A stretch of 64,000 bases of DNA, from the NCBI RefSeq assembly GCF_003990725.2, contig NZ_CP030064.1, forward strand, positions 2,480,001 to 2,544,000, in the 5' to 3' direction. The notes under the pieces were generated by a model that had not been told where the DNA came from, searched no databases, and worked only from the letters and a program-made list of their open reading frames with translations. This DNA is from Halorubrum sp. PV6 (GTDB lineage: Archaea > Halobacteriota > Halobacteria > Halobacteriales > Haloferacaceae). Made by a program: the position numbers and the translations under genes. Shown one piece after another: positions 11,057-48,879 of this stretch; within the stretch, counting starts at the first letter, position 1, and every line of letters starts with the position of its first letter.

Positions 11057-11133
11057 CTATCCCCGCTTCGGCCGCGACCGCAAAGGCGTTTGTGAACGGG
11101 GGGTATCGTTCCGGTTTCGCGCGGGACCGGCGA

Positions 11134-12936
11134 TTACGGCTCCGGGAGCGGCGCGTAGTGTCGTTTGATCCCGCGGATCTCGAAGCGCGCGCCGCCCTCG
11201 TCCGACGCGGTCGCCTCGACGGTCCAGCCGTGGGCGCTGGCGATCTCCTGGACGATCGCCAGCCCGAAGCCGGTGTTCCCCTCGGCGCTGCTCTGTCCGG
11301 GCTCGAAGAGGTCGTCCGCGACCGACTCCGAGATCCCCGGCCCGTCGTCGGCGACGTAGAACCCGTCGTCGAGGTCGCCGACCCGGATCGTCACGTCCGG
11401 CCCGGCGTGTTCGACGGCGTTCCGCGCGAGGTTCTCGAACAGGTTCCGCAGCCGGTCCGGGTCGGCCGACACCTCCCTGTCGGTCTCGACCGTGAGCGTC
11501 GCGGCGCCGGTCTCGACCGTCTCCCAGCTGTCGGTCGCGACCGTCGCGAGCGAGACCGGCTCGGTGTCGCCGACCGTCTCCCCCTCTCTGGCGAGCGTGA
11601 GGGTGTGGTCGATGATGGACTCGATCCGGTCGAGCGCGGCGGCGGTGGCGTCGAGGTGCTCGTCGATCTCGGCGTCCTCGTCGGCCGTCGTCTCCGCGAG
11701 CTCGACGCGCCCCTGCGCGACGTTGAGGGGGTTTCGCAGGTCGTGCGAGACGATGGACGCGAACGAGTCGAGTCGCTCGTTCTGGCGTTTGAGCGCCGCC
11801 TCGCGGGTTTTAAACTCCGTGATATCCTCCTGGAAGCCGACCCACTCCGTGACCCGACCGGCGGCGTCGGTGATGGGGGCGATGCTGACGCGGTTCCAGA
11901 ACTCGGTGCCGTCCTGGCGGTAGTTCAGCAGTTCGACGCTGGTCGACTCTTCCGCCGCGATGGCGTCGCGAAGCGTCGAGACCGCGGCCTCGTCGGTGTC
12001 CGGCCCCTGCAGGAACCGGCAGTTCACGCCGACCGCGTAGTCGCGGTCGTAGCCGGTCATCTCGACGAACCGGTCGTTGACGTACACCATCGGGTTGTCC
12101 GGCAGTTCCGGGTCGGTAATGGTGATCCCCACCGGGGCCTCGTCGAGCGCGCGGGTCTTCGTCTCCAGCTCCTCGCGCTGCTCGACGTCCTCCGAGACAT
12201 CGCGCAGGATGCCGACGCTGCCGTCGAACTCCTCGCCCTCGTACGGCAGCGCGGCCATGTGGTCGCGACAGGGGATCGGGTCGCCCTCCTTCGGCTCGAT
12301 GTCGACGCGGAACCGCTGGATGTCCGGCCCGTCACGGGAGAGGATGGTTCCGAGCCGGTCTTCGGACTCGTGGACCGCGTCGTCGCCCTTTATCAATCCG
12401 GGCTTGCTTCCGACGATCTCCTCGACGTCGTAGCCGGCCAACTCCGCGAACGGCTCGTTGACGAACTCGAAGGTGCCCGTCTCGTCGACGACGTAGACCG
12501 GATACCCGAGCGCGTCGATGACGGTCGAGTAGCGGTCGGCGATCTCGCGGGTCCGGTGCTCCTCGACCGCCTGCCCGACCCGGTTCGCGAGCCGGCGCAG
12601 CTGCTCTGGACCGCCCTTCTGGAAGTAGCCGGTGACGCCCGCGTTGAGCGCCTGGCTGGCGATCTCTTCGGAGCCTTTCCCGGTGTAGAGGACGAAGGGG
12701 GTCGAGCAGTCGGTCTCACAGATCCGCTCGAAAAGCGCCAACCCGTCCATCTCGGGCATGTCGTAGTCGCTGATGATACACTCGAAGCGGTCGTCGTCGA
12801 GTTCCTCCAGCGCGGCCGACGGCGTCGTGACGCTCGTGACTGCAACCGCGTCCAGTTCCCGTTCGAGGTAGGCCTCCGTGAGGTCGAGTACGGAAGCGTC
12901 GTCGTCGACGTGCAACACGTCGATGCGTTCAGCCAT
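11134..12936 (-). CDS. Receiver-PAS-LOV histidine kinase (candidate blue-light sensor)
   Basis: A 600-residue soluble hybrid kinase. Residues 1-120 form a receiver domain with acidic pocket Asp11-Asp13, phospho-acceptor Asp57 (IISDYDMPEMDG), Thr85 and Lys107. A PAS domain follows (about 130-250). Residues 262-375 match a LOV flavin domain closely: VYVNDRF, GVNCRFLQG with the photoactive Cys306, NYRQDGTEFWN and GFQEDIT with the flavin-interacting Gln369. HisKA has the phospho-acceptor His398 (SIVSHDLRNPLN), and the HATPase has ENLARNAVEH (N box), DDGPGI and GFGLAIV. It likely senses blue light through FMN and signals by autophosphorylation. No separate output regulator is adjacent. Confidence 0.88.
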   Translation of the reverse strand: MAERIDVLHVDDDASVLDLTEAYLERELDAVAVTSVTTPSAALEELDDDRFECIISDYDMPEMDGLALFERICETDCSTPFVLYTGKGSEEIASQALNAGVTGYFQKGGPEQLRRLANRVGQAVEEHRTREIADRYSTVIDALGYPVYVVDETGTFEFVNEPFAELAGYDVEEIVGSKPGLIKGDDAVHESEDRLGTILSRDGPDIQRFRVDIEPKEGDPIPCRDHMAALPYEGEEFDGSVGILRDVSEDVEQREELETKTRALDEAPVGITITDPELPDNPMVYVNDRFVEMTGYDRDYAVGVNCRFLQGPDTDEAAVSTLRDAIAAEESTSVELLNYRQDGTEFWNRVSIAPITDAAGRVTEWVGFQEDITEFKTREAALKRQNERLDSFASIVSHDLRNPLNVAQGRVELAETTADEDAEIDEHLDATAAALDRIESIIDHTLTLAREGETVGDTEPVSLATVATDSWETVETGAATLTVETDREVSADPDRLRNLFENLARNAVEHAGPDVTIRVGDLDDGFYVADDGPGISESVADDLFEPGQSSAEGNTGFGLAIVQEIASAHGWTVEATASDEGGARFEIRGIKRHYAPLPEP

Positions 12937-13052
12937 GATCTCTTCTGTCGCTCGGCAGGTAAACGAATACCGGCGAAAATATCAGTCCTGAGTTTCGTCG
13001 GCGGTGTCGTCGTGGCTGATTCTTAAGGGCGCGCGGCGCGGACCCCAGAGCG

Positions 13053-17762: not shown

Positions 17763-18821
17763 TCACGGGACGTACCAGATTCCCCTGTCGGCGTCGAACA
17801 GGTCGCCGACGACGACGTGCGGAAGCGCGATGATGCTGATCGCGACGCTCCAGAACGCCACCGCGCCGGGCAGCAGCGACGACCCCGCGAAGGGGTTCGG
17901 GAACGCGACGTACAGCGCGGCGACGACGGTGAACGTCGCGAGCGCGCCGACCGCCATCAGCGCCCACGCCCGCAGCGCGGCCGCCGACACGGAGTCACCC
18001 CCCACGAGGTCCCAGTCGTCCTCGCCGACCGGCTCGGCCTCGACCGTCGCCGTCCGCGCGACCTGGCGGGCGGAGTACCAGAACGGGAAGTAGAGCCCGA
18101 CGGCGACGAGCACCGGGACGACGGCGAAGTACACGGCCAGCAGGACGCTCTCGCCGGCGTCGACGAGCCACGCCCGACCGCCGCCGCGGACGTAGCCCAG
18201 CGCGATGTGCGCGACGAGCGCGGCGGCGTAGCCGGCGAGGATCACCCCGCGAACCGTGTCGGTGGGGCCGCGCGTGAGCGCGCCGGCGTCGACGAGGCCG
18301 ACCATGAGCGTGCTAAACGCGTAGAAGGTGTCGCTGTGGAACACCATCGGCACGAGCATCACGGCGCCGCCCCGGACCGCGGCGGCGAGCGCTCGCTGCG
18401 GCCGCGTCTGGAGGTGCGGGACGCCGACGGTCGCTTCGAGGACGCGAACCCCGCCGATTCCGCCCTTCGCCATCGCGACGACCAGCGCGAGACCGAGGCC
18501 GGCGACCGGGGCGATCAGGAACAGGCCGACGAAGCCGGCGATCCCGCCGAGGTACGCGGCGACGTACCGCCAGCGGAACGACGGTCGCCGCCGCCTGAGG
18601 TTCTCGAAGTGTTCGTACCCGCCGTGCGGGAGGTTCAGGGCGATCATCCCCACGAGGTAGACGATCATCTGTGCCTCGATCGGAACGGACACGCCGGCGA
18701 GCGCGACCGCGCCGAACCCGGCGATGAGCGCCGCGAGCGCCGCCCGCGAGAGCCCGATCGACGGGTGGGTCCGCGTCCCGCCGACCGACCGCCACAGCCG
18801 CTTTTGAACGGTCAGGGACAT
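17763..18821 (-). CDS. Brp/Blh-like membrane protein with altered active site
   Basis: A 352-residue integral membrane protein with eight or more helices, of the Brp/Blh beta-carotene 15,15'-dioxygenase family that makes retinal. The family PHGxxDH motif appears as PHGGYEH (His66, His71), and VFHSDTFY (His162) and PHVVVGD (His335) are also present. The metal-binding WHSxRH motif of true Blh enzymes reads WYSARQ at residues 248-253, so both histidines are lost. The start ATG 18821 (MSLTVQKRLW) is preferred to an upstream in-frame codon. It is divergent from the CrtI-type desaturase gene, which supports a carotenoid-related role, but dioxygenase activity is doubtful. Confidence 0.82.
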   Translation of the reverse strand: MSLTVQKRLWRSVGGTRTHPSIGLSRAALAALIAGFGAVALAGVSVPIEAQMIVYLVGMIALNLPHGGYEHFENLRRRRPSFRWRYVAAYLGGIAGFVGLFLIAPVAGLGLALVVAMAKGGIGGVRVLEATVGVPHLQTRPQRALAAAVRGGAVMLVPMVFHSDTFYAFSTLMVGLVDAGALTRGPTDTVRGVILAGYAAALVAHIALGYVRGGGRAWLVDAGESVLLAVYFAVVPVLVAVGLYFPFWYSARQVARTATVEAEPVGEDDWDLVGGDSVSAAALRAWALMAVGALATFTVVAALYVAFPNPFAGSSLLPGAVAFWSVAISIIALPHVVVGDLFDADRGIWYVP

Positions 18822-18924
18822 TACAGCGGACGTACGGACGGGATAACAAAATCCGTCCGGGCGCGATCCCACGCTCCGGGAACGGCACGAATTGCCAAGG
18901 GTCGGGGTCACGTACCGATCGGAT

Positions 18925-20499
18925 ATGGCCGACCAGCTTCGCGACGACCCGACGATCACCGTCGTCGGCGGGGGGTTCGGTGGCCTCGCGGCCGCCGCGT
19001 ACCTCGCCGACGCCGGAGGCGAGGTGGAGCTGCTCGAACGCCACGACCGCGTCGGCGGCCACGCCGGCGTGATCGAACGTGACGGCTTCCGGTTCGACTC
19101 GGGGCCGTCGTGGTACCTGATGCCGGACGTGTTCGAGCGCTTCTTCGGGCACTTCGACCGAGAGCCCGAAGACTACTACGAGTTGGAGCGGCTCGACCCC
19201 CAGTACCGAGTGTTCTGGAAGGACGGGGACCGCGCCACCATCGCGCCGAACCGCGAGAACGTCCACGAGGTGTTCGAGTCCTACGAGCCCGGCGCCGGCG
19301 ACGCGCTCGCCGAGTACCTCGACCGCGCCGAGCGCAACTACGACCTCGCGATGGACCGGGTGGTGTACGAGGGCCGCGACCGGCTGCGCGACTACGTCGA
19401 CACCGACCTCCTCCCGCTGGCCCCGCGATACCGCCTGTTCGGGAACATGGACGACTACGTGGGGCGGTACGTCGACCATCCGAAGCTCAAACAGCTGTTG
19501 GAGTACACGCTGGTGTTCCTCGGCGGCTCGCCGTACAACACGCCGGCGCTGTACAGCATCATGAGCCACGTCGACCTGAACATGAACGTCTTCTACCCCG
19601 AGGGCGGCATCGCCGGGGTGGTCGACGCGCTCGCGACCCTCGCTCGCGAGCGGGGAGTTAGGATAGAGACGGGCGTCGAGGTGCGGTCCATCGACGGCCG
19701 AGCCGGGGCGTTCGACCTGACGACCGACGCCGGGACGCGACGGACGGACCTCGTCGTCAGCAACGCCAACCCGGCGTACGTCGAGCAGGAACTGCTCGAC
19801 CCGAGCGACCGCGACCACGACCCTGGCTACTGGGACGACCGCACCTACGCGCCCTCCGCGTACATGCTGTACCTCGGCGTCGAGGGCGACGTGGGGCCGC
19901 TCGCGCACCACTCGCTCGTCTTACCGACCGACTGGTCCGACCACTTCGAGGCCATCTTCGAGGAGCCGCGCTGGCCGGACGACCCCGCCTACTACCTCTC
20001 CGTCGCCTCCGAGACGGACGAGACGGTCGCGCCCGACGGCCACCACGCCGTCGTCGCGCTGGTCCCCATCGCGCCCGGCTTAGAGGACGGGCCGGCGGTG
20101 CGCGAGCGCTACCGCGAGAAGGTGTTGGCCGACCTCGCCGAACACGCCGGCGTCGACCTCCGCGACCGGATCGTCTCCGAGACGACCGCCTGCGTCAGCG
20201 ACTTCGCCGACCGCTACGGCGACCCGCAGGGGACGGCGCTGGGGCTCGCACACACGCTCTTCCAGACGGGGCCGCTCCGCCCCGGCCACCGCGCCGGCCT
20301 CGACGGCCTCTACTACGTCGGCTCGTTCACGGGGCCGGGAATCGGGATGCCGATGTGTCTCATCAGCGGCGAGCACGCGGCGACCGCCCTCGGAGAGGAC
20401 TACCCCGAAGCCCTCGGCGGCGACGGGCTGACGCTCGACGCGGCACACCCGACCGGGTCGGAGCCGGCCGGCTCGGCGACGCCGCCCCGGTCGCGGTGA
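18925..20499 (+). CDS. crtI: Phytoene desaturase family protein (CrtI-type)
   Basis: A 524-residue FAD-dependent carotenoid desaturase/isomerase. The N-terminal dinucleotide fold is VVGGGFGGLAAAAYL, then ELLERHDRVGGHAG. The family C-terminal signature appears as LDGLYYVGSFTGPGIGMPMCLISG. Substrate-channel segments such as FDSGPSWYLMPDVFERFF and YPEGGIAGVVDAL match CrtI proteins. It would convert phytoene toward lycopene, or act later in bacterioruberin synthesis. The proline-rich last 30 residues vary. A phytoene synthase gene lies 5 kb downstream and a Brp-like gene is divergent. Confidence 0.93.
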   Translation: MADQLRDDPTITVVGGGFGGLAAAAYLADAGGEVELLERHDRVGGHAGVIERDGFRFDSGPSWYLMPDVFERFFGHFDREPEDYYELERLDPQYRVFWKDGDRATIAPNRENVHEVFESYEPGAGDALAEYLDRAERNYDLAMDRVVYEGRDRLRDYVDTDLLPLAPRYRLFGNMDDYVGRYVDHPKLKQLLEYTLVFLGGSPYNTPALYSIMSHVDLNMNVFYPEGGIAGVVDALATLARERGVRIETGVEVRSIDGRAGAFDLTTDAGTRRTDLVVSNANPAYVEQELLDPSDRDHDPGYWDDRTYAPSAYMLYLGVEGDVGPLAHHSLVLPTDWSDHFEAIFEEPRWPDDPAYYLSVASETDETVAPDGHHAVVALVPIAPGLEDGPAVRERYREKVLADLAEHAGVDLRDRIVSETTACVSDFADRYGDPQGTALGLAHTLFQTGPLRPGHRAGLDGLYYVGSFTGPGIGMPMCLISGEHAATALGEDYPEALGGDGLTLDAAHPTGSEPAGSATPPRSR

Positions 20500-25443: not shown

Positions 25444-26409
25444 ATGGTAGAGAAGACGCAGGTTGCCAGAGGAAAGCGGATCCAGCGCCAGACGGGGAAG
25501 ACGTTCCACGTTGCGACCCGACTGCTCCCGGAGCGGATCCGGCACCCGACGTACGTGCTGTACGGGTTCTTCCGGATCGCGGACGAGGTCGTCGACGCCG
25601 AAGACACCGCGCCGCCGGACGAGCAGCGCGCGGAACTCGACCGGCTCCGACGGGCCGCGCTCGGCGAGACGACGACCGACGACCCGGTGTTGGAGGCGTT
25701 CGCCGCGGTCTGCGAGGAACACGGCATCCCCGACGAGGACGTGAACGCGTTCGTCGACGCGATGGCGTCCGACATCGACACCGACCGGTACGAGACGTAC
25801 GACGAGTTGGAGACGTACATGGACGGCTCCGCGGCCGCCGTCGGTCGGATGATGACGGCGATCATGGAGCTCGACGACGAGGCCGAGGCGAAGGCGCTCC
25901 CCCACGCGACGAAACTCGGCGAGGCGTTCCAGATGACGAACTTCATCCGAGACGTCCGCGAGGACGTGGTCGAGCGCGATCGGGTGTACCTCCCGCTCGA
26001 GACGCTCCGGCGGCACGGCGTGAGCGAGCGCCAGATCCTGGAGCTGGAGTTCGACGACGACGTGGCGGCCGCGATACGCGAGGAGCTGACCCGGACCGAG
26101 AAGCTGTACGAGGAGGGCGTCGCCGGGATCAAGTACCTCCCGGAGGGCTGCCAACTCGCCGTGTTGCTCTCGGCGGTGCTGTACGCGGACCACCACCGAC
26201 TGGTCCGAGACCTGGGGTTCGACACGGTGTCGACGACGCCGGAGCTCTCCTTCCTCCGGAAGATGTCGCTGCTCGTCCGGACCCGCTGGAAGTGGCAGTG
26301 GAACCAGGATCCGGAAGCCGTGTTCCACGAGATGTGCGGCGACTTCGGGGGAACCCACGACCCGCGTGAACACGGGCCACACGGGCCGGGAGCCGCCCAG
26401 TCGGACTGA
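25444..26409 (+). CDS. crtB: Phytoene synthase (squalene/phytoene synthase family)
   Basis: A 321-residue prenyl-transferring enzyme that condenses two geranylgeranyl diphosphates to phytoene, the first committed step to bacterioruberin. The first Asp-rich region is FRIADEVVDAED near residues 46-57 and the second is GEAFQMTNFIRDVREDVVERDRVYLP, the classic signature with DxxxD metal ligands. The length fits archaeal CrtB. I start at ATG 25444 because the upstream in-frame extension (from 25336) is Cys/Arg-rich and unlike the family. A short membrane protein gene follows 5 bp downstream. Confidence 0.95.
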   Translation: MVEKTQVARGKRIQRQTGKTFHVATRLLPERIRHPTYVLYGFFRIADEVVDAEDTAPPDEQRAELDRLRRAALGETTTDDPVLEAFAAVCEEHGIPDEDVNAFVDAMASDIDTDRYETYDELETYMDGSAAAVGRMMTAIMELDDEAEAKALPHATKLGEAFQMTNFIRDVREDVVERDRVYLPLETLRRHGVSERQILELEFDDDVAAAIREELTRTEKLYEEGVAGIKYLPEGCQLAVLLSAVLYADHHRLVRDLGFDTVSTTPELSFLRKMSLLVRTRWKWQWNQDPEAVFHEMCGDFGGTHDPREHGPHGPGAAQSD

Positions 26410-48678: not shown

Positions 48679-48879
48679 ATGGTGTTCAAAAAGATCACGC
48701 TGATCGGGACCAGCGAGGAGAGTTTCGACGCCGCCGCGGACGAGGCGATCGACCGCGCCGAGGACACGCTGGAGAACGTCTACTGGGCCGAGGTACAGGA
48801 GTTCGGCGTCGAGTTGGACAGCGCGGCCGACCGGGAGTATCAGGCGGAAGTCGAGGTCGCGTTCGAACTCGAAGGCTGA
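48679..48879 (+). CDS. Dodecin, flavin-storage protein
   Basis: A 66-residue protein that assembles into a hollow dodecamer binding riboflavin or FMN. The sequence [29 protein letters not shown] and [13 protein letters not shown] closely follow Halobacterium salinarum dodecin as I remember it. Trp36, which stacks on the isoalloxazine ring, and Gln40 are present. It would buffer free flavins and protect them from light. Confidence 0.95.

Follow-up and report, generated by a model that had tools for sequence, protein, structure and literature searches.

A 600-residue protein of Halorubrum sp. PV6, in which a receiver (REC), a PAS domain and a LOV domain precede the HisKA and HATPase_c domains of a histidine kinase, is in our estimate with about 90% probability a cytoplasmic histidine kinase that binds flavin and serves as a receptor for blue light, as judged from its sequence and from the model of its LOV fold. 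The conserved cysteine of the LOV domain, Cys306, and an ortholog whose flavin pocket has decayed together with the loss of its kinase domain support a genuine photosensor that would be coupled to the kinase. The gene lies in a 64,000-nucleotide stretch of the PV6 genome, hereafter the window; Table 1 gives the positions of its features.

Domain organization of the LOV kinase

The open reading frame and its translation were found exactly where the earlier note had placed them, with an ATG start. Analysis with Pfam detected the receiver, two PAS domains, HisKA and HATPase_c, with the best PAS_9 stretch at residues 268 to 374 (E = 6e-30 for the whole protein). This result bore out the order receiver-PAS-LOV-kinase proposed in the earlier note, which had also called the LOV the middle domain; the LOV domain is present, but as the third of five domains. 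The acid pair, the phosphoacceptor Asp, the Thr and the Lys of a receiver domain are all there, and the kinase half carries the H-box His plus the N, G1 and G2 boxes of a HisKA-type kinase. Relatives at 75 to 82% identity all came from Halorubrum, in line with the archaeal origin that had been assigned to the protein.

The block GGTATTCGTTTA upstream of the gene is found at the same distance in five of the six close Halorubrum orthologs examined and is slightly altered in the sixth, and the TTCGTTTA element is a putative promoter of the LOV kinase gene. A long open reading frame on the plus strand (11092 to 13026) was rejected as a gene, being an antisense shadow from high GC.

Table 1. Features of the LOV kinase gene and other genes of the window
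Feature	Position in window	Strand	Evidence
REC-PAS-LOV-HisKA-HATPase histidine kinase gene, 600 aa	11134-12936	minus	ORF, domain scan, genus-wide orthologs
Receiver (REC), residues 7-113; Asp12/Asp13 acid pair, Thr85, Lys107	12598-12918	minus	Pfam Response_reg, 1e-20
REC phosphoacceptor Asp57 codon	12766-12768	minus	invariant among 26 LOV-type relatives
First PAS domain, residues 131-255, without LOV motif	12172-12546	minus	Pfam PAS families
LOV domain, residues 262-375	11812-12153	minus	phmmer to solved LOV domains, AlphaFold, Foldseek
Cys306 codon, predicted flavin-adduct cysteine	12019-12021	minus	invariance in orthologs and relatives
GVNCRFLQ motif around Cys306	12007-12030	minus	sequence
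NYRQDGTEFWN, residues 338-348, with predicted flavin-contact Asn338 and Asn348	11893-11925	minus	each Asn in 25 of 26 LOV-type relatives
Gln369 codon, conserved signaling glutamine of the last LOV strand	11830-11832	minus	26 of 26 LOV-type relatives
HisKA dimerization/phosphoacceptor domain, residues 390-452; H-box SHDLRNPL	11581-11769	minus	Pfam HisKA, 1.5e-11
His398 codon (H-box)	11743-11745	minus	invariant in 36-sequence alignment
HATPase_c, residues 492-588; N box with Asn506, G1 DDGPG, G2 GFGL	11173-11463	minus	Pfam, 1.4e-17
TTCGTTTA element, candidate BRE/TATA of a leaderless transcript, ~24-31 bases 5' of the ATG	12960-12967	minus	conserved block
Brp/Blh-type beta-carotene 15,15'-dioxygenase gene (retinal synthesis)	17763-18959	minus	
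Phytoene/squalene synthase family gene	25486-26250	plus	
Dodecin gene	48682-48873	plus	

The LOV domain retains the flavin-contact residues

A LOV search pattern from the literature, [NS]-x(2)-[FPGHSA]-x(4)-[GEQR]-x(9,11)-C (Losi and co-workers, PMC4844311), is satisfied by N287, F290, G295 and C306 of the protein. The LOV consensus GX(N/D)CRFLQ is present as GVNCRFLQ at residues 303 to 310, with the predicted adduct cysteine in place; the motifs quoted in the earlier note (GVNCRFLQG at 303 to 311, NYRQDGTEFWN at 338 to 348 and the terminal Gln at 369) all read as given there, and the cysteine is indeed residue 306. When the protein was aligned with known LOV proteins, a check proposed in the same note, the top phmmer match in the PDB was the LOV kinase YF1 (4gcz; E = 1.1e-41, residues 256 to 586), and almost every one of the top 60 PDB matches was a LOV protein or an engineered LOV fusion, so that the LOV assignment is not by chance. 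The scores against the NCBIfam equivalogs YtvA_fam and BluLightHisKinLov were 169.3 and 149.7 bits, under the curated cut-offs of 250 and 450, respectively; by its sequence the protein thus lies outside these two equivalog families, though it is a LOV kinase.

The AlphaFold model of the LOV domain alone, built with 30 aligned sequences, had a pLDDT of 93.3 and a LOV fold. Foldseek superposed it on the Meiothermus LOV domain with a TM-score of 0.97 (0.8 to 0.9 Å), on YF1 with 0.93 (1.1 Å) and on the Brucella LOV-HK with 0.89 (0.8 Å). Search pattern, PDB matches and fold model therefore all agree on the LOV identity claimed at the outset. The full-length model had a pTM of 0.42, and the whole-protein fold search returned mostly domain matches with poor whole-chain superposition; for this reason the domain arrangement was left uninterpreted.

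The polar flavin contacts of phototropin LOV2, mapped by eye on the phmmer alignment, are retained, and the contact set N281, N305, R307, Q310, R323, N338, N348 and Q369 is present and conserved. Trp365, which is conserved across all Halorubrum orthologs, occupies the site beside the flavin that is Phe in bacterial and eukaryotic LOVs. Trp at this flavin-facing position is usual for archaeal LOVs, according to the study of Lake Diamante (PMC12202551). Trp365 could nevertheless quench the flavin or favor photoreduction, and this counts against the blue-light receptor.

Other LOV-type domains of the PV6 genome

Five LOV-type domains were found in the PV6 genome, of which three, including that of the window protein, have the cysteine and two have Pro instead. 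The two further cysteine-bearing LOV kinases are a GAF-PAS-LOV protein on contig 2 and a PAS-PAS-LOV protein at C1:1.82 Mb. The H-box of these two kinases (L168, 3937 to 5946; L169, 4009 to 6192) is of the RHNLRN type, unlike that of the window protein. At C1 ~608 to 610 kb (L170, 3685 to 5979) a Bat-type protein with the order REC-LOV*-GAF-BAT-HTH_10 carries the motif GRNPRFLQ. A short protein at C1 ~741.4 to 742.3 kb (L171, 4423 to 5259) has a C-terminal LOV-like domain with GENPRLLQ, Pro standing for Cys; no output domain was recognized in it, and it is possibly a stand-alone cysteine-less LOV.

Since Trp365 beside the flavin is an electron donor, the conserved residue would also fit a sensor mainly of redox state or flavin occupancy, in which the redox state of the flavin is the physiological signal and light a secondary trigger, as in cysteine-less LOVs such as that of Halorubrum Bat. 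The LOV* domain of a Halorubrum Bat protein has been shown to bind flavin and to be reducible by light as well as chemically, although it lacks the cysteine (PMC4682037). However, the adduct cysteine is invariant in the family while Pro-type LOV* domains, two in number, occur in the same genome, which argues that the cysteine is not merely carried along. We consider a redox sensor of this kind very unlikely and the blue-light receptor the better account.

Conservation of the LOV kinase in Halorubrum and Haloplanus

Full or nearly full orthologs at 70% identity or above were present in 45 of the 52 Halorubrum genomes, the protein being conserved at 70 to 84% identity over the genus, and a second genus, Haloplanus, has orthologs at 60 to 63% identity. 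Cys306 was unchanged in 33 distinct aligned Halorubrum orthologs and in the five intact Haloplanus orthologs. Among 26 LOV-type relatives, down to ~40% identity, Cys306, Leu309, Gln310, Gly367 and Gln369 were unvarying in every sequence, and the receiver residues D12, D13, D57, T85 and K107 were invariant together with His398. The kinase residues His398, N506, D530, G532, G534, G556 and G558 were invariant in a 36-sequence alignment. Compared with eight orthologs, the gene had a dN/dS of ~0.16 to 0.42 in every domain; by this measure every domain of the LOV kinase is under purifying selection.

The ortholog of Halorubrum sp. Boch-26 (L040, 5001 to 6785) keeps the cysteine and has Arg307 replaced by Leu, Asn338 by His and Gly270 by Asp. 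Because Arg307 is the phosphate-binding residue and Asn338 is changed as well, some lineages may have become less strict in binding flavin, and flavin binding may be weakening in that of Boch-26.

Joint loss of the kinase domain and the flavin pocket

In the Haloplanus genome G074, the ortholog (L138, 7291 to 8403) ends directly after the LOV domain and has no kinase domain; the next gene 3', from its translation, encodes cobyric acid synthase. In this kinase-less copy, 11 of 48 conserved LOV positions have changed versus 0 of 66 in REC-PAS (Fisher p = 3.5e-5). The changed residues include Cys306 (to Leu), Gln310 (to Arg), Asn338 (to Thr), Asn348 (to Thr), Trp347 (to Arg) and Gln369 (to His). 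The intact Haloplanus copies, which keep the cysteine, had 2, 2, 2, 3 and 8 changes at the conserved LOV positions. Since the pocket has decayed where the kinase was lost, the simplest reading of this single truncation event is that the flavin pocket appears to be kept because it controls the kinase. By the same reading, the unchanged REC-PAS positions suggest that the receiver and the first PAS domain are useful on their own.

Some related kinases share this REC-PAS-kinase chassis but have no LOV, and weakened pocket residues are seen in two orthologs, one from Halorubrum and one from Haloplanus; such facts could fit a degenerate PAS domain that looks like a LOV by descent and has lost flavin binding, with sensing left to the receiver and the first PAS. 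On the other hand, all the main flavin contacts are present, Cys306 and Gln369 are invariant in the family, and true decay, as in the kinase-less ortholog, looks quite different. We find a degenerate domain scarcely credible and keep to a functional flavin-binding photosensor.

The LOV-less chassis itself is represented by a haloarchaeal REC-PAS-kinase of 506 aa (L057), which is 61%, 55% and 51% identical to the Halorubrum protein in the receiver, the first PAS domain and the kinase, respectively. Copies of the first PAS domain with 54 to 57% identity are found in haloarchaeal kinases without LOV. In both the Halorubrum LOV kinase and L057, the phosphoacceptor His lies 27 residues after the Asp that belongs to the last sensor strand; this spacing is also 27 in 79 of the 94 haloarchaeal kinases counted, with minor classes at 20 and 34, in steps of seven. 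From the shared chassis and the common spacing, the LOV domain looks like a cassette that sits in register within a common haloarchaeal REC-PAS-kinase frame.

Genomic neighborhood and the receiver

In Halorubrum, a gene for an MFS transporter lies 3' of the LOV kinase gene on the same strand, and the gene for DNA polymerase IV is divergently adjacent. Of the surrounding block of about ten genes, most were also present in the further Halorubrum genomes that were compared, so adjacency is uninformative, and the neighborhood was rejected as a functional clue because it is plain synteny across Halorubrum. The block is absent from Haloplanus, and no cognate response regulator adjoined the LOV kinase gene in the Halorubrum genomes examined. 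The dodecin and carotenoid genes, which had been taken as a sign of a light-exposed lifestyle, are present in the window, but their support for it is weak: the dodecin gene is 36 kb away and the genes stand in ordinary conserved synteny. This context was rejected as evidence of light function, being too distant or too generic.

In Haloplanus, all six ortholog-bearing genomes have the LOV kinase gene head-to-head with a three-gene cluster (L136, 3857 to 6986; L133, L134, L135, L137 and L138), which encodes, in order, a membrane histidine kinase of ~500 aa, a single receiver of 145 aa and a REC-kinase of ~390 aa. Pfam assigns the 145-aa protein to Response_reg, and from its sequence we read it as resembling the Rcp1 type. 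The same cluster is found without a LOV kinase in two of six other Haloplanus genomes, and the kinase-less G074 ortholog still adjoins it. This arrangement is suggestive of a pathway shared by the LOV kinase and the cluster in Haloplanus, an association that phylogeny alone could explain. A homologous partner cluster in PV6 was rejected, the best kinase having 43% identity and the best response regulator 41% over part of its length only; a kinase/response regulator/REC-kinase group near C1:57-63 kb of this genome is not clearly orthologous to the Haloplanus cluster.

Because neither Asp57 nor its partner residues vary and the Haloplanus orthologs stand head-to-head with the cluster, it is plausible that an upstream phosphorelay tunes the light input via the receiver. 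The receiver plus first PAS might even be the principal regulator, serving the neighboring kinase system, with the LOV-kinase half as an accessory light gate. Such a division, which overlaps with our main explanation, would fit the invariant receiver residues and the REC-PAS half that has stayed unchanged beside the cluster in the kinase-less Haloplanus copy. However, this view has a single truncated copy behind it, the gene has no such cluster beside it in Halorubrum, and the PV6 genome has only weak homologs of it; we regard this division of roles as unlikely. A two-input gate is a tentative possibility, in which an upstream kinase would write on the receiver, blue light would act via the LOV domain, and both would set one kinase; REC-PAS could then persist alone, as in one Haloplanus genome, and the Haloplanus cluster would be the partner system.

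Discussion

By analogy with established LOV chemistry, blue light would produce a covalent adduct between Cys306 and FMN bound in the LOV domain, and the adduct would change the hydrogen bonding at Gln369. This change would reach HisKA and HATPase through the helical linker of 27 residues between Asp371 and His398, and a shifted kinase/phosphatase balance there would alter phosphoryl transfer to one or more response regulators, whose genes are predicted to lie at other loci of the genome. Separate inputs would come from the N-terminal receiver, probably phosphorylated by another kinase, and from the first PAS domain; we infer both this role and the target of the kinase. A LOV domain of this kind from a haloarchaeon, characterized in 2025, binds FMN, forms an adduct absorbing at 390 nm and photocycles up to 3 M salt (PMC12202551), which counts in favor of the blue-light receptor. 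A rule based on linker length predicts the sign of the light response in YF1 (PMC6798134). The Asp-to-His linker is 36 residues in YF1 versus 27 here, and the offset of -9 fits neither 7n nor 7n+1; the rule therefore gives no sign for the Halorubrum kinase, and a prediction from it was rejected.

YF1, a fusion of the YtvA LOV domain and the FixL kinase, is the best match in sequence and fold, with the same succession of LOV, helical linker, HisKA and HATPase, but it is engineered and has neither a REC nor an additional PAS domain. The Brucella LOV-HK (PDB 6ph4, 6pps) likewise combines a blue-light LOV domain with a histidine kinase and a further PAS domain, and its LOV fold is close; unlike the Halorubrum protein, it is bacterial, has the order LOV-PAS-kinase and lacks a receiver. 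Bat of Halorubrum hochstenium (PMC4682037) has its LOV fold after a receiver and comes from the same genus, whereas its LOV* domain has Pro for the adduct Cys and its output is GAF plus HTH DNA binding, with no kinase.

Closer in kind are the archaeal proteins. A 2014 survey covered 167 archaeal LOV proteins, and all that lack an HTH are LOV kinases carrying response regulator, GAF and PAS modules (PMC4844311). Lake Diamante yielded 28 archaeal LOV proteins, and the paper on them also describes receiver, PAS and GAF domains before the LOV and kinases after it (PMC12202551). The Halorubrum protein resembles the archaeal LOV histidine kinases in its LOV motif, its haloarchaeal origin, the REC/PAS/GAF type of modules before the LOV and the histidine kinase after it, and it shares with archaeal LOVs the Arg after the FWN motif and the Trp at the flavin-facing Phe position. 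ALovD-1 of Halonotius (PMC12202551) is a haloarchaeal LOV domain from a multi-PAS histidine kinase, for which FMN binding and a photocycle were demonstrated; it differs in belonging to another kinase family, in having Tyr for Phe inside the LOV motif and in having been studied as an isolated domain only. Our literature search found no experimental record for the Halorubrum or Haloplanus orthologs and no experimentally characterized complete archaeal LOV kinase, the isolated haloarchaeal LOV domain being the only case. Given the 2014 catalog (PMC4844311) and the 2025 photocycle (PMC12202551), the class of archaeal LOV kinases is already known, and the Halorubrum protein is a further, well-conserved member of it.

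The PV6 genome has three rhodopsins, all encoded outside the window, and Halorubrum is a genus otherwise known for rhodopsins. The LOV kinase is nearly universal in this genus, which makes it a good candidate for studying the use of flavin-based light sensing in haloarchaea. With its receiver intact, the protein would allow a direct test of whether light and a phosphorelay are integrated, and the G074 ortholog, which lacks both the kinase and the flavin pocket, is a natural experiment linking photochemistry to kinase output.
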